Positions 39,271 to 61,379 of a stretch of 64,000 bases of DNA are shown one piece after another; position 1 is the stretch's first letter, and each line of letters starts with the position of its first letter. This DNA is from Methylobacterium organophilum (GTDB taxonomy: Bacteria > Pseudomonadota > Alphaproteobacteria > Rhizobiales > Beijerinckiaceae), in contig NZ_BPQV01000004.1 of the NCBI RefSeq assembly GCF_022179465.1, forward strand, positions 186,001 to 250,000. The letters run 5' to 3'. Under the pieces are notes generated by a model, which was given only the letters and a program-made list of their open reading frames with translations, made no database searches and was not told the origin of the DNA. A program made the position numbers and the translations under genes.

Positions 39271-40986
39271 ATGTCAGCTGGTCTGAACGTGCGCGACGGC
39301 GCGCCGAGCCGCGAGGATTTCGCGGCGCTGCTCGAGGAGTCCTTCCTCCAGCACGAGATCACCGAGGGCTCGGTCGTCAAGGGCACCGTCGTCGGGATCG
39401 AGAAGGACGTCGCCGTCATCGATATCGGCGCCAAGACGGAGGGCCGCGTCGCCCTCAAGGAATTCACCGGCCCGGGCCGCGAAGGCGAGCTCAAGGTCGG
39501 CGATGAGGTCGAGGTCTATGTCGACCGCATCGAGAACGCGCTCGGCGAAGCCGTCATCTCGCGCGACAAGGCCCGCCGCGAGGAGAGCTGGGTGAAGCTC
39601 GAGAAGGCCTTCGAGGCCAACGAGCGCGTCACCGGCACCATCTTCAACCAGGTCAAGGGCGGCTACACCGTCGATCTCGACGGCGCCGTGGCGTTCCTGC
39701 CGCGCTCCCAGGTGGACATCCGCCCGGTGCGGGACGTGACCCCGCTGCTCGGCACCCCGCAGCCCTTCCAGATCCTCAAGATGGATCGCCGCCGCGGCAA
39801 CATCGTCGTCTCGCGCCGGACCGTGCTCGAGGAGAGCCGCGCCGAGCAGCGCTCCGAGCTGGTGGCCAACCTCGAAGAGGGCCAGGTCATCGACGGCGTG
39901 GTCAAGAACATCACCGAGTACGGTGCGTTCGTGGACCTCGGCGGCATCGACGGCCTGCTGCACGTCACCGACATGGCGTGGCGCCGCGTGAACCATCCGT
40001 CCGAGGTCGTGACCATCGGCCAGACGGTCAAGGTCAAGATCATCAAGATCAACCACGAGACCCACCGCATCTCGCTCGGCATCAAGCAGCTGCTGGCCGA
40101 TCCGTGGGAGGGCATCGCCCAGCGCTACCCCGAGGGCGCCAAGCTCAAGGGCCGCGTGACCAACATCACCGATTACGGCGCCTTCGTGGAGCTGGAGCCG
40201 GGGATCGAGGGCCTGATCCACGTCTCCGAGATGAGCTGGACCAAGAAGAACGTCCATCCGGGCAAGATCGTCTCCACCTCCCAGGAGGTCGAGGTGCAGA
40301 TCCTGGAAGTCGATCCGGTCAAGCGCCGCATCTCGCTCGGCCTCAAGCAGACCCTGCAGAACCCCTGGGATGCCTTCGCCGAGAAGCACCCGGTCGGCTC
40401 CGAGGTCGAGGGCGAGGTCAAGAACAAGACCGAGTTCGGCCTGTTCATCGGCCTCGAGGGCGATGTCGACGGCATGGTCCACCTGTCGGATCTCGACTGG
40501 AACCGTCCCGGCGAGCAGGTCATCGAGGAGTTCAAGAAGGGCGACATGGTGCGTGCCCAGGTTCTCGACGTCGATGTCGAGAAGGAGCGCATCTCGCTCG
40601 GCATCAAGCAGCTCGGCGGCGACCCCTTCGCGGAAGCCGGCGAGATCAAGAAGGGTCAGGTCGTCACCTGCGAGGTGATCGAGGTGAAGGATTCGGGCGT
40701 GGAGGCGAAGATCGTCGACACCGACCTGTCGACCTTCATCCGTCGCGCCGAGCTCGCCCGTGACCGCGGCGACCAGCGTCCCGAGCGTTTCGCCGCCGGC
40801 GAGAAGTTCGACGCCCGCGTGACCATGTTCGACCGCAAGGCGCGCCGCGTCCAGCTGTCGATCAAGGCGCTCGAGGTGGCCGAGGAGAAGGAGGCGATGG
40901 CCCAGTTCGGCTCCGCCGATTCCGGCGCCTCCCTCGGCGACATCCTCGGCGCGGCCATGAAGAAGGCCCGCTCCGACAACGAGTGA
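39271..40986 (+). CDS. rpsA: 30S ribosomal protein S1
   Basis: A 571-residue protein with six S1 RNA-binding repeats. They begin at about residues 25, 110, 195, 283, 370 and 460; examples are GSVVKGTVVGIEKDVAVIDIGAKTEGRVAL, GVVKNITEYGAFVDLGGIDGLLHVTDMAW, and GRVTNITDYGAFVELEPGIEGLIHVSEMSWTKK. S1 brings mRNA to the ribosome. Codon use is strongly biased, as expected for high expression. The start 39271 is supported by CAGGAGAGAGA. A strong terminator follows. Confidence 0.98.
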   Translation: MSAGLNVRDGAPSREDFAALLEESFLQHEITEGSVVKGTVVGIEKDVAVIDIGAKTEGRVALKEFTGPGREGELKVGDEVEVYVDRIENALGEAVISRDKARREESWVKLEKAFEANERVTGTIFNQVKGGYTVDLDGAVAFLPRSQVDIRPVRDVTPLLGTPQPFQILKMDRRRGNIVVSRRTVLEESRAEQRSELVANLEEGQVIDGVVKNITEYGAFVDLGGIDGLLHVTDMAWRRVNHPSEVVTIGQTVKVKIIKINHETHRISLGIKQLLADPWEGIAQRYPEGAKLKGRVTNITDYGAFVELEPGIEGLIHVSEMSWTKKNVHPGKIVSTSQEVEVQILEVDPVKRRISLGLKQTLQNPWDAFAEKHPVGSEVEGEVKNKTEFGLFIGLEGDVDGMVHLSDLDWNRPGEQVIEEFKKGDMVRAQVLDVDVEKERISLGIKQLGGDPFAEAGEIKKGQVVTCEVIEVKDSGVEAKIVDTDLSTFIRRAELARDRGDQRPERFAAGEKFDARVTMFDRKARRVQLSIKALEVAEEKEAMAQFGSADSGASLGDILGAAMKKARSDNE

Positions 40987-41064: not shown

Positions 41065-41137
41065 GTTGCGCCGACGCCCCGCGGGGCCGAATCGATCCGG
41101 ACCGTTTCCGGACGGCGGAAGCGGTCTCCGCGCCTCT

Positions 41138-41175
41138 CCTCGCCCCCTGGGCGAGGGGGACCGCGCGCAGCGCGG
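41138..41175. repeat. Tandem GC-rich hairpins downstream of rpsA
   Basis: CCTCGCCC/GGGCGAGG (41138-41156) is followed by CCGCGC/GCGCGG (41161-41175). Similar short palindromic GC-rich stretches occur in other spacers of the window (about 4326-4370, 54735-54780), so it may be a dispersed intergenic repeat. The rest of 41065-41301 shows no gene. Confidence 0.4.
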
Positions 41176-41301
41176 GGGAGTGGGCTTTTTGCCGGGCGCG
41201 AGGCCGGCTCTCACGGCGCCCCCTCCCTCCGCCTCGCGGCCACCGCCCCCAGCGTTGGAGAAAAGGTCGATCACTCCCCCTCCGCGTCATGACAAGCAGG
41301 G

Positions 41302-41309
41302 CTTCATAT
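41302..41309. repeat. Left target-site duplication (CTTCATAT)
   Basis: An 8-bp AT-rich direct repeat abutting the left inverted repeat; the same octamer is at 44665-44672. Eight bases of AT-rich duplication is what the IS1595 family makes. The match extends to 12 bp (CTTCATATCCTA) because the next four bases happen to agree. Confidence 0.7.
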
Positions 41310-41335
41310 CCTAATTATATACCTGAGAAAGCAGA
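41310..41335 (+). repeat. Left terminal inverted repeat
   Basis: It starts CCTAATTATATA and ends AAAGCAGA. Compared with the reverse complement of 44639-44664 it matches at 20 of 26 positions, with the inner eight bases (AAAGCAGA) identical. Confidence 0.7.
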
Positions 41336-41400
41336 TACTAGCACCCCTTGGGCGTACAATGCATTAGCTAAAGCATTGAGCAGACAGGGTGAGTTCGCTA

Positions 41401-41663
41401 TGGCGAACGATGTTAAGATTAAGGATTTTATTCCTGAGTCGTTTTTGACTGGCGAGCCTTCCGACGAGATGGTGGCCGCGGGGGGTTCGGCTGCGGCGGA
41501 TTTAGGCGCTGAGAACGTATCCTTAGACTTTCTTGCACGTACGATATTTCAAAGGATGGTGCTCGCCAGCCATGGACAGCATCCTCGTAATTTTGGGCAA
41601 AAACCCCACGCTCACCAGCATTCCACAGATTGCGAAAAAACAGCCTGTGATACAAGTCATTAA
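41401..41663 (+). CDS. Possible truncated ORF at the left end of the element
   Basis: An 87-codon frame beginning MANDVKIKDFIPESFLTGEP. Its first ~50 residues look protein-like (acidic, low bias; VSLDFLARTIFQR), then the sequence turns to unconvincing His/Gln/Thr-rich text. It overlaps the 3' end of the opposite HEPN-like gene, whose own last ~40 residues look out of frame. I suspect an old junction near 41550-41580 that left a 5' gene remnant. The same frame is open back to 41289 across the inverted repeat. No function recognised. Confidence 0.35.
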
Positions 41664-42159
41664 ATGATTCTTCGCAAAGTGACAGGTCAGTTGCCAGTTC
41701 CTCTAGTACGGATAGATCAACTGCTATAGATTTAATCTCAGCCGCTCCCGTCCTGCGTTTTGCAGAGATCTTCATTAAAGATGGCGGATTCACTGACTGG
41801 TAAAATTTATTAAAATGAAATCCATGCATCAGGTCGTTCCTGGCGCCTCTCAACAAATTGTAGAGCGCTACAGTGACATTGGCGATTTCCATCAGCTTAG
41901 CATCATCGACAATATTTTTATTCATCAAATTTAAAAGCAAATCGGCTCGGCTGACGTTGGGCATATCAGCCGTGACAAGCTCGCCGGTTTCTTGATCCCA
42001 ATTGGCTGCGGCCCATATTGCGGCCACCAGATTGCGCTCCAGGGCGTTCCACAGGACGCTTATGTATCCTAGGATCGCTAGCTGTTCGTCGGACATGCCG
42101 GTGCGAGCCTTGCGCATCAACGGCGTGTTGGCATCCCACAAGAGCGGGTTCTGGACCAT
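41428..42159 (-). CDS. HEPN-like hypothetical protein
   Basis: A 243-residue protein starting MVQNPLLWDANTPLMRK (alternative Met at 42096, MSDEQLAILGYISVLW). It is largely helical: LWNALERNLVAAIWAAANWD, LLLNLMNKNIVDDAKLMEIANVTVALYNLLRGARNDLMHGFHF. The segment RNDLMH fits the R-x4-H signature of HEPN ribonucleases, at the end of a long helix as in that superfamily. HEPN domains act in toxin-antitoxin, abortive infection and CRISPR systems. The last ~40 residues are Pro/Arg-rich and may be read-through beyond a truncated end. It is cargo of the transposon. Confidence 0.6.
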   Translation of the reverse strand: MVQNPLLWDANTPLMRKARTGMSDEQLAILGYISVLWNALERNLVAAIWAAANWDQETGELVTADMPNVSRADLLLNLMNKNIVDDAKLMEIANVTVALYNLLRGARNDLMHGFHFNKFYQSVNPPSLMKISAKRRTGAAEIKSIAVDLSVLEELATDLSLCEESFNDLYHRLFFRNLWNAGERGVFAQNYEDAVHGWRAPSFEISYVQESLRIRSQRLNPPQPNPPRPPSRRKARQSKTTQE

Positions 42160-42346
42160 GACTGACGGGCCTAGGCAGCAACGTACAACCAAAAAGCCCG
42201 AACTCACCGAAGCTGACAAGGCACCCCTAGAAGCCGAGCCCGATTGGGAGCGGATGGGACAAGCGGCGAAGCGGTTGCTTAGGGATGCTCCAGAACGCGA
42301 TAACAATGTAAGGAGCCAAGGAGCGCAAAAGCGCACAGAACGATAG
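42158..42346 (+). CDS. Small hydrophilic ORF (62 aa) in the element
   Basis: It begins MTDGPRQQRTTKKPELTEADKAPL and continues EAEPDWERMGQAAKRLLRDAPERDN, a charged helical composition that looks coding. Its ATG shares the palindrome CATG at 42157-42160 with the divergent HEPN-like start. It could be a small partner (for example an antitoxin) of the HEPN-like protein, but that is speculation; no clear ribosome-binding site is present. Confidence 0.4.
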   Translation: MTDGPRQQRTTKKPELTEADKAPLEAEPDWERMGQAAKRLLRDAPERDNNVRSQGAQKRTER

Positions 42347-42407
42347 ACAGTTAGGTCAAAGAACTTAAATAATATACACCCTGAATGTGGCTTGGGAATT
42401 TTGTGCC

Positions 42408-43337
42408 ATGCCAGTCTCAATGCCTGATGTCAGGCGCACAATTACCGTTCTTGCTCGGCAGAATAAAATCAATGCTCTAATATATTCCCTTGTTATACCA
42501 ACATTGCTTGGCCTTTTATCTGGATTTTACAAGGAGTTGACTGCGTTTAGTCAATTTGTTTTTTGGATCCCATTTGTAGTTCTGGTGGTTACTGCTTGGG
42601 TAACTGCATGGCTTAACTATGATGTAAAATTAGCACCCGAGGTTTATTTCGAACTAGACGATGCAAAGCACCAAATATCTGACCTATCAAAGACTACGCG
42701 GTTCCTAAGCACATTGCAGGAACAGGCGCTGGTTCTTGGGGCCATGGTCCGCGAACAAGTCAAAAGGAAGCTGCAGCAGCAAGGGGGCCTCAAAGAGGCA
42801 GTTGACGAAATATGCTCTTTGATGGCGGCAAACAGAGATAACCTTTTTGAGTTTGAGTCTAGAGAGCTTTGGAGCTTCGCGGTCTATATATACAGTGAGA
42901 AAGATGGCCTACTGTATCCCGTTTGGAGGGAGCGCCATGAAAAGCACCCTTCGAAATCTATGGGTAGGGTCTGGAGTCCTGGCCAAGGCCATGTCGGCAT
43001 TGCATGGGCTCAGGGGGAGGGTAAAATATGCCCCGACATATCTGTTCCCGGCGTAGCGGATATGTTTTCTCCAACGAGCAAGAAAACTGGCTACGACGCA
43101 GCGACATACGTGTCGTTTGTGTCAGAACCAATTGGTCCGTATGGTTCACGTAAGGTGCCGTATGGAGTGCTGGTTGCAACCAGCAACTCGGCGGATCGTT
43201 TCAACTTCGGCTCAGCCCTACCACTCCGTCATGCCGCTAGCGCGATTGCCGCGCTTATCTACCTCGCCTACGATCAGGCCGACCTCGAAGAACTTGTGGA
43301 AACGGCCAAGCCAAAACCCCCGTCCGGTGTTATATGA
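42408..43337 (+). CDS. Two-helix membrane protein with GAF-like sensor domain
   Basis: A 309-residue protein. Two membrane helices lie at about 22-40 (INALIYSLVIPTLLGLLSGF) and 48-69 (FSQFVFWIPFVVLVVTAWVTAW). A probable coiled coil (about 80-120; LDDAKHQISDLSKTTRFLSTLQEQ) links to a cytosolic GAF-like domain (about 150-295): ESRELWSFAVYIYSEKDGLLYPVWRERHE, GRVWSPGQGHVGIAWAQGEG, YVSFVSEPIGPYGSRKVPYGVLVATSNSADRF. GAF domains bind cyclic nucleotides and other small ligands, and two-helix effectors occur in nucleotide-signalling immune systems. A sensor or effector role is inferred, not shown. Codons are AT-rich compared with the host. Confidence 0.7.
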   Translation: MPVSMPDVRRTITVLARQNKINALIYSLVIPTLLGLLSGFYKELTAFSQFVFWIPFVVLVVTAWVTAWLNYDVKLAPEVYFELDDAKHQISDLSKTTRFLSTLQEQALVLGAMVREQVKRKLQQQGGLKEAVDEICSLMAANRDNLFEFESRELWSFAVYIYSEKDGLLYPVWRERHEKHPSKSMGRVWSPGQGHVGIAWAQGEGKICPDISVPGVADMFSPTSKKTGYDAATYVSFVSEPIGPYGSRKVPYGVLVATSNSADRFNFGSALPLRHAASAIAALIYLAYDQADLEELVETAKPKPPSGVI

Positions 43338-43360
43338 GGGGTTCGTCGCGGGAGGTTGTC

Positions 43361-43576
43361 ATGGAAGACGTTGTCTCAAGAAGGCCCGTCCAGTCCTACA
43401 GCCGAGAGGCGGAACGCATCAGCGCAGAGATCGGACAGCCGAATAGCGACCCGAGGCTCGTTGACGATCTTGTAAGCGCAATCAAGGTCCAAGCCGATGA
43501 GGTTTCTAACTTCTTCATCGGTCGGTCTACTCATCCCCAGCGCCTACAGGGCATGAAACGGCAGACAAAGAAATAA
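43361..43576 (+). CDS. Small hypothetical protein (71 aa) downstream of the GAF-like gene
   Basis: It begins MEDVVSRRPVQSYSREAERISA, preceded by GGGAGG at 5 bp, a good ribosome-binding site that selects this ATG over one nine codons upstream. The product is helical and hydrophilic (PRLVDDLVSAIKVQADEVSNFF) with a basic C terminus (MKRQTKK). It lies 23 bp after the GAF-like gene and is probably co-transcribed. No family recognised. Confidence 0.55.
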   Translation: MEDVVSRRPVQSYSREAERISAEIGQPNSDPRLVDDLVSAIKVQADEVSNFFIGRSTHPQRLQGMKRQTKK

Positions 43577-43652
43577 TCTTACCCGTTGCGCTTCGTCAGC
43601 CTGAGGCGATGCCTCTCAGCCATGTAGGTCGACCGGCTTCGTCAGTCCGCCG

Positions 43653-44595
43653 TTAGGTAAGGCGCCTACCGGCGATGCTAGCCGCGAGCTTGCAGGAACG
43701 CTCGCAATCCGAATAGCCGAGCTTCGTGCGGGTGTTGTAGCGGAAGTCGAACTCCGCGAGGTAGCGGTGCAGATGCTTCTCCGCGCAGTGCTGGTAGATG
43801 CCGCGCATGCCGCGCTTGAAGACGGAGAAGTAGTTCTCGACCGTGTTGGAATGGACCTCGCGGTCGTCCAAGCGGACGTACTCACCGGCCGAGGCTTGAC
43901 CGTGGAATGCTCCACGAAATGCGTTGAGAGGCCCGTGTAAAGGCAGCTCTCGTCGGTCATGAAGCGGCTGTCTTTGGAGATGTTTGCCTTCACGATCTCC
44001 TGCACGTTGGCCTTGGTCGCAGTCGCCGGGTGGAATGAGCGGGGACGGTGCCGCCACGCTCGACCAGCGAGACGACGACGCACTTGTCGTAGCCGCCACC
44101 GGACTTGAGGTGCGGGCGGCCCTTGCGGTGCTTGGACGGCTGTGCCTCTTCGACCTTGCCGATGTAGGTCTAATCAGCCTCAACGATCTTGCCGGGGCCG
44201 CCCATGGGCTCCTGAGAGCCGGGGAGCGGGCGCATGGCCTCGCGTAGACGGTGGGACATGAACCACGCCGTCTTGTAGGTGATGCCGAGCATGCGGTGCA
44301 GCTGATGGGCTGAGACGCCTTTCTTGCTGGAAGCCATGAGATGCAGGCCCATCACCCACTTGGTCAGCGGGATTTTGGAACGCTCCATCACCGTGCCGAC
44401 CGTGACTGTGAATTGCTCGCGGCACTCGTTGCACTGGTAGACGCCGGGGCGATGGGACTTGCCGGCTAGAGCCCTGATCTTGGCCTGATCGGCGTTGCCG
44501 CAGTGAGGGCAGGTCCGACCCTCGGGCCAGCGCTGTGCTTCAAGCCACGCGCGGGCGGCAGTCTCGTCGGTGAAGCGGGGCTGAGAGAGCGACAT
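43653..44595 (-). pseudogene. IS1595-family (ISXO2-like) transposase, broken
   Basis: It begins MSLSQPRFTDETAARAWLEAQRWPEG and has the N-terminal zinc ribbon (CPHC...CNEC) and the helical segment WVMGLHLMASSKKGVSAHQLHRMLGITYKTAWFMSHRLREAM typical of the family. An amber codon at 44170-44172 replaces the Glu expected in EAD(E)TYIGK, inside the DDE catalytic domain. Two frameshifts follow, near 44040 and near 43895, after which the intact-looking frames SFHPATATKANVQEIVK and EYVRLDDREVHSNTVENYFSVFKRG resume. Reassembled length is about 310 residues, the family norm. Inactive. Confidence 0.9.
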
Positions 44596-44638
44596 AGCGG
44601 GGCAGGTCCGTTTGATAGATAGGACTTATACCCTCAAG

Positions 44639-44664
44639 TCTGCTTTGTCACATATACAATCAGC
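44639..44664 (-). repeat. Right terminal inverted repeat
   Basis: Read on the minus strand it starts GCTGATTGTATA and ends AAAGCAGA, matching the left repeat at 20 of 26 positions. It lies directly upstream of the transposase start. Confidence 0.7.
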
Positions 44665-44672
44665 CTTCATAT
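44665..44672. repeat. Right target-site duplication (CTTCATAT)
   Basis: Identical to 41302-41309 and directly outside the right inverted repeat. Confidence 0.7.
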
Positions 44673-45239
44673 CCTATATTCTAAGAATAATATCTTGACA
44701 TTCTGGGTCTGATGTCTTAGGTGTCGTCCCGCTCGCCGCCGCGGCGGGGCCTTTGTCAGGGTCCCGGCGACACGGCACAGGGAAGCCTTCCGGAGGATCG
44801 GCCGGGGGTGCTTTCGGGGGCGGCGAGGCGGTTCCCGCGTCGTGGGTGGCGATCGACCCACGCCCCGGGCGTCGTGCGCGCTGGAGGCGGCCGGAGCGGC
44901 GGGTTCATCCCGCAAGCCGGCTCGAGCCTTACAAGGGACCTGATCTGCCCGCCCCCACTACGAGGGCCGGGTCGCCGCGGCGGTTCCGCGAGCCGAGCCC
45001 GGGAGGGCAGGACACCTCCCGTGCCGAGAGACAGGGGCGTGCCAGGGCGAGCAAAAAACCGCGACGCAAAATCGGTTCGAGGCGGCGTCTGCCCCCCGAG
45101 CCGCGGGACGCCGGGGAAACCGGATCCACGCGCATGACAGAGTACAAGGGTTTCCGCGGCGTCCCGCGTCCCCTGTCGTCAAGCATGAGCGCCCCGGCGG
45201 ATTGCCGCGCGGGGCCGGTGGCGCGTGGGCGGGCGCCCC
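44673..45239. other. Spacer between the element and bioB, no gene supported
   Basis: The first ~45 bp are AT-rich and include TTGACA (about 44695); the remainder is GC-rich sequence in the 3' flank of both rpsA and bioB. Open frames of 80-170 codons here are Arg/Gly/Pro-rich with no ribosome-binding sites and are not called. No clear terminator for bioB was found. Confidence 0.4.
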
Positions 45240-46241
45240 TCACTCCGCCGCGGCGAGGGTGATCTCCGGCACGCGCACGCCGATGTCGCGGAGCAGGGCG
45301 GCGTCCTCGTCGGCCTCGTTGTTGGCCGTGGTGAGCAGGCGCTCGCCGTAGAAGATCGAGTTGGCGCCGGCCAGGAAGCAGAGGATCTGCGCCTCGCGGG
45401 TCAGGCTCTTGCGGCCGGCGCTGAGGCGCACCCGGGCCTTGGGCATGACGATGCGGGCGGTGGCGCACATGCGCACGAGGTCGAGGGGATCGACCGGCGG
45501 CCGGTCCTGCAGGGGCGTGCCACCCACGGCGACGAGGGCGTTGATCGGCACGCTCTCGGGATGGGGGGCATGGTTGGCGAGCACCATCAGCATCTCGACC
45601 CGGTCGCGCACCCGCTCGCCCATGCCGACGATGCCGCCGCAGCAGACGCCGATGCCCGCCTGGCGCACGTTCTCCAGCGTCTTCAGCCGGTCCTCGTAGG
45701 TGCGCGTCGAGATGATGTCGCCGTAGAAGTCCGGGCCGGTATCGAGGTTGTGGTTGTAGGAGGTGAGCCCGGCCTCGGCGAGGCGCTCCGCCTGGGAGGC
45801 GGTGAGCATGCCCAGGGTGACGCAGGCCTCCATGCCGAGGCCGCGCACGCCGCGCACCATCTCCAGCACCGCGTCGAAATCCGGCCCGTCCTTGGGCTGG
45901 CGCCAGGCCGCGCCCATGCAGAAGCGGTGCGCGCCGTTGGCCTTGGCCGCGGCGGCCTCCTGCAGCACCCGCTCCACCGGCATCAGCCGTTCGCGCGGGA
46001 GCCCGGCCTCCTTGTGGTGGGCCGATTGCGGGCAATAGGCGCAATCCTCGGGGCAGCCGCCGGTCTTGATCGAGAGCAGGGCCGCCCGCTGGATGTCGGC
46101 CGGATCGTTATGGGCACGGTGCACGCTGCCCGCGCGATGCACGAGATCGAGCAGCGGCATGTCGTGGATCGCCTGGATCTCGGCGAGCGTCCAGTCATGC
46201 CGGAGGGCGGAGGGGGGCAGGGAGACCACGGTGTCGCTCAT
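45240..46241 (-). CDS. bioB: Biotin synthase
   Basis: A 333-residue radical-SAM enzyme converting dethiobiotin to biotin. The cluster motif [14 protein letters not shown] is present, with further family segments [71 protein letters not shown] and [33 protein letters not shown], which hold the conserved 2Fe-2S ligands. No other bio genes are adjacent. It is divergent from the catabolic island. Confidence 0.97.
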
Positions 46242-60056: not shown

Positions 60057-61379
60057 TCAGGCGTATCGGGTGACGCCGAGATGGTCGCGCAGATGTGGGC
60101 CGGAATACTCCTTCCGGAAGATGCCGCGGCGCTGCAGCTCGGGCACCACGAGGCCGGTGAAGTCCTCCACGCCGGTCGGGAAATGGGTCGGTACCGCGAG
60201 GAAGCCGTCGCAGGCGCCGGCCTCGAGCCATTCCTGCATGATGTCGGCAATGGTGCTCGGCGCGCCGACGAGCTTCATATAGCTGCCCTCGGCGAAGAAG
60301 CGCGCGGTCTGGAGGATCGAGAGGTTGCCCTTGCGCGCGAGGGCCATGATCGCCTCCCGGTGCGACTTGCCCGCGTTGGTCGGCGGTAGCTCGGGCATCG
60401 GCCCGTCGAGATCGTAATCGAGGAAGTTCAGGCCGCCTGAATGCGGCGTCAGGTGGCTGATGGCGAGTTCGACGGGGATGAGGTCACGCATCTTCGTGCG
60501 GAAGGCCTCCGCATCCGCATCGGTGCGGCCGACGATCGGCGTGATGCCGGGGAGCACCTTGATCATGTCGGGATCGCGGCCGAAGCGCTCGGCGCGCTTG
60601 CGGATGTCCTCGCGGAAGGCGCGGGCTGCCGTGATGTCGGTCTGCAGCGTGAACACCACGTCGGCGGTGCGCGCCGCAAGCTCGCGACCCGGCTCCGACG
60701 AGCCCGCCTGGAAGATGACGGGGCGCACCTGCGGGCTGCGGCCCATCGGCAGGGGACCCCGGACCTTGAAGAAGCGCCCCTCATGCTGGAGGAAATGCAT
60801 CTTCTCGACATCGAAATAGCGGCCACTGTCTTTATCGCGCGTGACGGCGCCGGGCTCCCAGCAATCCCAGAGTCCCGTCACGACATCGATGAATTCGCTC
60901 GCGCGCTCGTAACGAAGGCCGTGCTCGACATGGGCGTCGAGCCCGAAATTCTGCGCCTCGTTCTCGTTGAACGAGGTGACGAGATTCCAGCCGGCCCGCC
61001 CATTGCTGATGAAGTCGATCGAGGAGAAGCGACGGGCGGTGTTGTAAGGCTCATTGTAGGTCGCCGTCGACGTCGCCGCGAGCCCGAGATGCCTCGTCTT
61101 CATGGCGAGCGCGGGAAGCAGCATGGTGGGGTCGAAGTGGATCGCGCGAGGATGCGCCGCCCCGTAGGTATCGCCCTTCACAATGTGGTTGCTGCGCGGG
61201 ACGGCGGCCTGGTCCTCGAAGAAGATTGCGTCGAGCTTTGCCGCCTCGGCGAGCTGGGCCGCCCGCACATAGTGCTCGATGCCCACATCGAGCTCCGGGA
61301 TCGCCTCGGGCAGGCGCCAAGCGCCCAGATGCTGTCCCGGAAACAGGAACAGGGCCAAGCGCATCATCGTGTCGGTCAT
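60057..61379 (-). CDS. NtaA/SnaA/DszA-family flavin-dependent monooxygenase
   Basis: A 440-residue LLM-class enzyme, the usual length of nitrilotriacetate monooxygenase component A. Segments include LFLFPGQHLGAWRLPEA, LDAIFFEDQAAVPRSN, LGLAATSTATYNEPYNTARRFSSIDFISNGRAGWNLVTSFNENEAQNFG, VIFQAGSSEPGRELAARTADVVFTLQTDI and VPTHFPTGVEDFTGLVVPELQRRGIFR. Family members oxidise N-linked carboxymethyl groups, dibenzothiophene sulfone or pristinamycin precursors. With the reductase it likely makes the first oxidative attack on the island's substrate. Confidence 0.92.
   Translation of the reverse strand: MTDTMMRLALFLFPGQHLGAWRLPEAIPELDVGIEHYVRAAQLAEAAKLDAIFFEDQAAVPRSNHIVKGDTYGAAHPRAIHFDPTMLLPALAMKTRHLGLAATSTATYNEPYNTARRFSSIDFISNGRAGWNLVTSFNENEAQNFGLDAHVEHGLRYERASEFIDVVTGLWDCWEPGAVTRDKDSGRYFDVEKMHFLQHEGRFFKVRGPLPMGRSPQVRPVIFQAGSSEPGRELAARTADVVFTLQTDITAARAFREDIRKRAERFGRDPDMIKVLPGITPIVGRTDADAEAFRTKMRDLIPVELAISHLTPHSGGLNFLDYDLDGPMPELPPTNAGKSHREAIMALARKGNLSILQTARFFAEGSYMKLVGAPSTIADIMQEWLEAGACDGFLAVPTHFPTGVEDFTGLVVPELQRRGIFRKEYSGPHLRDHLGVTRYA

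Follow-up and report, generated by a model that had tools for sequence, protein, structure and literature searches.

An AT-rich island of about 3.4 kb lies between rpsA and bioB in a 64,000-nucleotide stretch of Methylobacterium organophilum DNA (contig NZ_BPQV01000004.1, positions 186,001 to 250,000; the whole stretch is called the window here). With a probability of roughly 0.8, this island is a degenerate, passenger-carrying transposon of the IS1595 family, that is, a "transporter IS" (tIS; IS, insertion sequence), one of a group of elements whose frame is constant and whose toxin- or defence-type cargo varies; the estimate includes the functions predicted below for the cargo.

Results

Comparison with a related element

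The element proper (41310-44664) is 3,355 bp long, and its GC content is 54% in a window that is mostly near 70%. It was compared with L067, a 3,113-bp element in genome G491 of the same genus, for which a set of 112 genomes, one per species, was used. The distal tip of 17 bp, CCTAATTATATACCTGA, is identical in the two elements, their DNA is 78% identical across 1,066 bp at the transposase end and 78% identical across 105 bp at the distal end, and L067 is flanked by an exact 8-bp duplication of its own, CTTTAACT. Because of these three features the island is regarded as a genuine transposon. The remaining DNA matches between the two elements were only those of the ends against each other, and tblastx added a weak match at the small open reading frame (ORF). 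As judged from this alignment, the window element and L067 have a common frame and different cargo, and the pair appears to be a clear case of cargo exchange. A pattern of the element ends, allowing up to three mismatches, was found in 2 of the 112 genomes, M. organophilum itself and G491, twice in each. The features of the window element are listed in Table 1.

Table 1. Features of the IS1595 element and its insertion site, with positions in the window (aa, amino acids).
Feature	Position	Strand	Remarks
Target duplication, left copy, CTTCATAT	41302..41309		Exact copy; direct identity continues to 41313; boundary from L067 comparison
Target duplication, right copy, CTTCATAT	44665..44672		Exact copy; direct identity continues to 44676
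Distal terminal inverted repeat, CCTAATTATATACCTGAGAAAGCAGA	41310..41335	+	First 17 bp are those of the distal end of L067
Conserved distal end, about 100 bp, with GGGTGAGTTCGCTATGGC leader and inward-reading start codon	41310..41410	+	78% DNA identity to L067
Short ORF, 87 aa, MANDVKIKDFIPESF...	41400..41663	+	Starts in the conserved leader; antisense overlap with HEPN-like ORF; coding doubtful
Cargo 1, HEPN-like protein, 243 aa, RNDLMH (R-x4-H)	41428..42159	-	Motif common to L067, L193 and L194
Accessory ORF, 62 aa	42158..42346	+	Model A1, E 1.7e-16, though the ORF itself is among the A1 training sequences
Cargo 2a, 2TM-GAF-type protein	42387..43337	+	316 aa from GTG 42387 or 309 aa from ATG 42408
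Cargo 2b, possible partner	43334..43576	+	80 aa from ATG 43334 or 71 aa from ATG 43361; first ATG overlaps the 2a stop (ATGA)
IS1595-family transposase pseudogene	43629..44595	-	Pieces in three frames, two in-frame stops; Pfam and NCBIfam domains; comparison with L067
Transposase-proximal terminal inverted repeat	44639..44664	-	20/26 against the distal end; within the region 78% identical to L067

Element boundaries and target sites

The initial annotation had reported an 8-bp repeat on both sides of the island and, just inside it, 26-bp inverted repeats matching at 20 positions. Both were reproduced: CTTCATAT occurs as an exact copy at each edge, and the terminal inverted repeats directly inside the duplications match at 20 of 26 positions. 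A third copy of CTTCATAT was present in the window at 60273; the chance expectation is 0.2 copies per window. The direct identity at the two edges in fact extends over 12 bp, CTTCATATCCTA, and for this reason this copy, taken alone, leaves an uncertainty of up to 4 bp in the boundary. The comparison with L067 favours the boundary that had been proposed. The L067 counterpart of the 87-aa ORF that starts in the conserved leader has just 12 codons.

The sites used by three elements with the tip CCTAATTATATAC (window 41302-41313, L067 and the plasmid relative L227) all have the form AGG-N8-CC, with the transposase reading rightward, and the target flanks of these elements resemble the elements' own ends. 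We read AGG-N8-CC as a probable target preference, from three cases, no further copy having been found in the genus. A 12-bp duplication was also considered, as TAGG precedes the site in both the window and L067, and was rejected since L227, which has the same tip, has GAGG.

The neighbouring genes are convergent: rpsA is on the + strand, its ORF ending at 40986, and bioB is on the - strand with its stop at 45240. We take the latter to be bioB from recognition of its sequence, and the former to be rpsA from recognition together with an annotated match. Just past the bioB stop lies an inverted repeat of 20 bp, 95% complementary, with a 27-base spacer (45102-45168). To the left of the element, a GC-rich stretch (41130-41266) has copies of 79-81% identity in the same genome (C9:238973-239112 and C16:81945-82098) and weaker ones in congeners; it is a dispersed repeat.

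The transposase is a pseudogene

The IS1595 zinc ribbon (PF12760, E 1.8e-12) and DDE domain (PF12762, E 7.2e-14) were detected, both above the cut-offs, on split ORFs in different frames, which read inward from the right repeat as had been noted before. NF033547 matched the transposase pieces with E values of 1.4e-18 and 1.7e-14, neither reaching the cut-off for the whole protein, a shortfall that the broken state of the gene probably explains. Alignment based on L067 showed two stops, one in the VEADETY region and one near the C-terminus, and two frameshifts; the transposase is therefore a pseudogene and this copy a relic, a breakage that the initial annotation had overlooked. The element is present in a single copy in its own genome. 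Judged from the reading frames, the transposase of this copy can no longer mobilise it, and the cargo frames are still open.

A wider group of IS1595 elements

Twenty-nine IS1595 elements with exact 8-bp duplications were delimited: 16 in the genus, nine in the class and four on plasmids. The genus elements came from 57 loci (the window, L067-L086 and L117-L152) and have inverted repeats matching at 19-26 of 26 positions. The class elements (9 of 16 loci, all recruited via the accessory ORF described below) match at 20-26 of 26, and the plasmid elements at 20-25 of 26; the latter are four of seven regions opened from 218 plasmid records with a related transposase, and in the three remaining regions inverted repeats are present but an exact duplication is missing. 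The lengths range from 1,960 to 4,234 bp, except for the decayed L187 (1,042 bp). Cargo ORFs were found in all delimited elements but one decayed copy, and ends like GGCGATTAT occur in many other elements.

The IS1595 family makes AT-rich target duplications of 8 bp. In the 25 genus and class elements measured, the duplications were 80% AT, compared with 34% in the 10 bp next to them on each side, and CTTCATAT follows the same rule. Together with the transposase domains, the 15 further genus, nine class and four plasmid elements bear out the earlier identification of the island as an IS1595-family transposon with passengers.

No exact duplication was found in ten genus loci that are nearest to the cargo-bearing transposase types (L072, L074, L078, L082, L083, L086, L140, L141, L143 and L147); L072, L078, L082 and L086 have inverted repeats, and others are partial or near contig ends. 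The genus also contains a second clade of IS1595 transposases, the T87 type (L117-L138, 22 loci), in which no ends of at least 15/26 with an exact duplication were detected. The accessory ORF had no match on the 19 contigs checked, which cover 20 of these 22 loci.

A recurrent accessory ORF

The accessory ORF belongs to a family of recurrent proteins of 55-83 aa (alignment A1, ten sequences). Its ATG in the window overlaps the HEPN-like ATG on the opposite strand (CATG, 42157-42160), and the same overlap is present in L067. Of the 16 genus elements bounded by duplications, 13 contain a member of the family, seven of the 13 being training sequences and one, in L080, a weak match (E 7.9e-4). It is absent from L068, L077 and L151 and hence is not universal. 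At E<=1e-3, 27 of 52 genus matches (17 of 42 non-training matches) lay within 5 kb of a listed IS1595 match, and at E<=1e-9 the numbers were 26 of 29 and 16 of 19. In the class, the accessory ORF was matched in 15 of 385 genomes.

Cargo across the group

Pfam scans were run singly for 30 cargo proteins, of which 17 genus elements (13 with bounding duplications) supplied 28 and class elements the other two; ORFs were called by a longest-frame rule with no gene finder, and the duplication-bounded L079 and L151 lay outside these scans. All 17 genus elements had at least one cargo match at E<=0.05, and the two class-element proteins had nothing of note in Pfam. The matches were to GNAT (L067), DUF3800 (L068, L073 and L077), PIN (L069, L078 and, below the cut-off, L071), N6/N4 DNA methylase with Mrr (L078), Schlafen AlbA_2 (L070, L082, L084 and L085, the last also with FRG), a putative phage abortive infection protein (putAbiC, L072), GIY-YIG (L075), XRE with an IrrE-like peptidase (L076 and L080), AIPR (L086), and MerR/DUF433 with PIN_10 and a Cas2-like ORF (L081). 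XRE/IrrE with DUF4411 was also among the cargos. We take the domains in 14 of the 17 elements to be nuclease, toxin or defence-associated; the other three have DUF3800 only. Two elements whose PIN-type cargo is the same each have a Cas2-like ORF of 91-93 aa close to the distal end (L081, 4302-4574; L177, 4673-4951); that of L081 matches CRISPR_Cas2 just under the cut-off (E 6e-5), and that of L177 is similar to it by eye.

In PADLOC, 35 cargo proteins, including two of the window, matched 113 families at E<=1e-3 and 63 at E<=1e-10. As a control, 48 ORFs flanking 15 elements, chosen by third-position GC, matched 25 families at E<=1e-10, one protein each. This control counts families, not proteins, and is only suggestive. 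The flank Pfam families (25 of 64 listed) were mostly metabolic, transport, envelope and regulatory, and also included DUF4411 and a DDE transposase.

On plasmids of Methylobacterium oryzae and Roseomonas marmotae, an IS1595 transposase, a hypothetical protein, a VapC or PIN toxin and a hypothetical protein of 61-62 aa stand together; both elements have exact duplications, their small ORFs match the accessory model, and their parts are annotated as separate genes. The M. oryzae plasmid encodes a protein with 95% identity to a cargo protein of the congeneric element L079. A conflict between cargo and transposase identities was also sought as a sign of cargo exchange; it was unconvincing, the two being roughly parallel in five of seven protein pairs.

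The cargo might instead serve the transposon itself, its toxin-like genes being addiction or stabilisation modules unrelated to phages. Many of the cargos are indeed toxin-like (PIN, GNAT, XRE/IrrE with DUF4411), and such a role has been proposed for toxin-antitoxin pairs in Tn3-family transposons (PMC7157771). We consider this explanation somewhat unlikely, since AIPR, putAbiC, DNA methylase with Mrr, and Schlafen/AlbA_2 are of defence type and are not evidently addiction pairs of two genes; addiction and defence roles are, however, not mutually exclusive.

The HEPN-like protein of the window

The motif of the first cargo protein stands in the context GARNDLMHG, and the contexts in its relatives are GERNSLAHG, ENRNQLLHS and FRNEVVHG. 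The signature of HEPN RNases is Rx4-6H with a polar residue after the arginine (PMC3710099), and the window protein has this motif. No match of note was obtained in NCBIfam, Pfam, PDB sequences or PHROG, where the NCBIfam and Pfam query was a longer frame of 330 aa. Relatives were found in 3 of 240 genomes including M. organophilum, the other two being weak.

The 2TM-GAF-type gene and the small ORF behind it

Relatives of the second cargo protein were sought in genome contigs, and 71 candidate stretches gave five confirmed members, from differently labelled alphaproteobacterial records, with 20-29% identity in the alignment. Hydropathy analysis showed two hydrophobic N-terminal segments in five of the six family members and one in L156. 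GAF_2 (PF13185) was matched at E<=1 by five of the six, with a best E of 1.8e-6. PDB profile matches were weak (best E 0.019), some of them to proteins that we take to be GAF proteins. Directly behind the gene, an ORF of 61-70 aa is present in all five relatives, either overlapping it or at most 76 bases away. The position and size of this small ORF are conserved across the window and the five relatives. In one relative, from an alphaproteobacterial metagenome-assembled genome (L153, 5959-7204), the gene and its small neighbour stand between genes that we take, by eye from their translations, to be mutS-like and glnD-like, and no IS1595 transposase was found there.

The same cargo was also looked for elsewhere, and was not found in 36 other genus genomes. 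The class search gave 5 of 385 genomes including M. organophilum, two clear (32% and 23% identity) and two marginal (E 0.004 and 0.009). There was no plasmid match and none in the viral scans, and in Pfam, NCBIfam and PADLOC the window cargo proteins gave nothing of note (best E 0.088). The further copies with this cargo that the initial annotation had proposed looking for were thus not encountered, no close copy being present outside the element's own genome in searches of 61 and 385 genomes.

A decayed island without present function, in which AT-rich hypothetical ORFs are carried passively, would account for a transposase broken by two stops and two frameshifts and for cargo proteins without a family match of note. 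It is an improbable account, as none of the HEPN-like, accessory, 2TM-GAF and 80-aa frames next to the broken transposase is interrupted, the overlaps of start and stop codons are operon-like, and the 2TM-GAF protein is conserved in the five alphaproteobacterial records.

Discussion

We propose that the element entered the space between the convergently oriented genes rpsA and bioB and duplicated an AT-rich target of 8 bp, its transposase having formerly carried out cutting and joining at the terminal repeats with a stagger of 8 bp. The constant frame, made up of the transposase half, the terminal repeats, the distal end and usually the accessory ORF, would hold variable toxin- or defence-type genes. 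The cargo probably moved in together with the element and may have conferred an advantage on the host or on the element. Its motif suggests that the HEPN-like protein is an RNase that cleaves RNA. The 2TM-GAF protein is predicted to lie in the membrane, where its GAF domain may sense a ligand or signal. The small neighbour, presumably co-translated, could restrain or assist the 2TM-GAF protein or form part of a complex with it, and the pair might act as a growth-arrest or abortive-infection module.

Several results weigh against this interpretation or parts of it. An 8-bp direct pair with a 26-bp inverted pair matching at 20 or more of 26 positions occurred in 4 of 40 Markov-1 resampled windows, and the real window has a second, GC-rich repeat pair at 19/26. 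The repeats alone are no proof, being within chance in a GC-rich window; homology decides. That they arose by chance and the island is no transposon has nevertheless almost no probability, because the AT-rich repeat edges an AT-rich insert that contains an IS1595 transposase, and the identical tip and own duplication of L067 speak decisively against it. No base-exact empty site was found when the joined flanks were searched against the 112 genus genomes. Matches were obtained in 111 of them, and the best listed match per genome was mostly the rpsA end, besides the window's own halves; among the matches listed, with few candidates scored per genome, none spans the junction in the 111 other genomes, so that the empty site which the initial annotation had suggested seeking did not appear. 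At 29 loci downstream of rpsA no element sequence was present, but bioB was also not within the 1.5 kb covered (less in two), and these loci gave no base-level test.

Further points concern the cargo. PADLOC gave no match at E<=10 for three window proteins, the HEPN-like one being queried as the 330-aa frame, and ORFs flanking the elements also match defence-type models such as PtuA, RmrA, capP and AriA. The HEPN-like proteins of the window and L067 align marginally (21% identity, E 0.004, in a one-to-one search), and the 2TM-GAF protein of the window, taken by itself, has no match to a GAF model at E<=1. The small ORFs of the relatives are only 8-18% identical to that of the window, and homology is thus not established. 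The earlier suggestion of an undescribed module is in keeping with the lack of a family match of note and with the small ORF behind the 2TM-GAF gene here and in five of five relatives, and is weakened by these low identities.

No IS1595 transposase was found in the 12-13 kb loci of the 2TM-GAF relatives by tblastn with five queries. The gene thus occurs elsewhere without IS1595, and the island could be a composite, with an old IS1595 element that later acquired the HEPN-like gene and the 2TM-GAF pair through separate insertions or recombination. The common ends and unlike cargo of the window element and L067 also imply cargo exchange by some route. We regard a composite origin as doubtful, as a repeat scan inside 41310-44664 gave only short imperfect inverted pairs, and the internal ORFs scanned match only the IS1595 transposase and zinc-ribbon families shared with it. 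The initial proposal that the element brought in the cargo gains support from the finding of the same ends around different cargo in L067, but is not proven. A passenger-carrying IS1595 transposon remains the interpretation that we prefer for the island.

A broader reading is put forward only tentatively. The compact alphaproteobacterial IS1595 clade may be a dedicated swap platform for conflict modules, in which the transposase end and the distal end, both constant, would together with a conserved small accessory protein accept interchangeable toxin or antiviral units; the 2TM-GAF protein and its neighbour may then be a new signal-gated membrane effector system, spread by such elements and by other routes. 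This reading is rated lower because the small neighbours are so dissimilar to that of the window (8-18% identity).

A small insertion sequence is commonly taken for nothing more than a transposase, and here an IS group repeatedly carries toxin or defence genes in units of 2-4 kb with exact ends. Two public plasmids annotate parts of such elements as separate genes, several of them hypothetical. Known ends make these units an index to unknown conflict genes, and the 2TM-GAF pair is a candidate ready for test.

Comparison with known systems

The elements resemble IS1595 tIS in their IS1595 transposase, terminal inverted repeats, AT-rich 8-bp duplications and non-transposition genes before the far end, and passenger genes unrelated to transposition lie inside one pair of ends. 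ISNha5 was reportedly described as an IS1595 tIS by Siguier et al. in 2009. PMC7986276 and PMC11891212 describe tIS as passenger-bearing insertion sequences, among them ISNha5 of the IS1595 family, whose passenger is a transcription regulator. In contrast to these, the cargo here varies between closely related frames and is mostly of toxin or defence type, an accessory ORF recurs, and the window transposase is broken. Among the best matches listed in the literature search, no title or opening of an abstract describes IS1595 elements with toxin or defence cargo, which is weak evidence of absence in a coverage from which subscription journals are mostly missing, and the IS surveys PMC7371123 and PMC11092175, in the parts available, mention IS1595 without such cargo. 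The search for a system of a 2TM-GAF protein with a small ORF, at the same level, turned up only other systems.

The HEPN superfamily RNases have the same R-x4-H with a polar residue (PMC3710099), whereas the window protein has no Pfam HEPN family match. The 2TM-GAF family resembles GAF-domain sensors (PF13185, PF01590) in the GAF_2 matches of five of its six members, and differs from them by the two hydrophobic N-terminal segments in five members and the small ORF directly behind the gene in all six.

Tn7-like elements have several transposition genes and a larger cargo, whereas the elements described here have one IS-type transposase and 2-4 kb in total. Tn7-like transposons carry defence systems, and the likeness lies in a transposon frame whose cargo can be exchanged and shows an enrichment of defence and toxin-antitoxin genes (PMC8649781). 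Tn3-family transposons carry toxin-antitoxin pairs, and share with our elements toxin-type passengers near the transposition genes (PMC7157771); they differ in having another transposase family and a resolvase with a res site, and the cargo range here is wider. Passenger-bearing IS1595 elements are therefore known in kind, and the exchangeable conflict-type cargo with an accessory ORF, as well as the GAF-type pair, look new.

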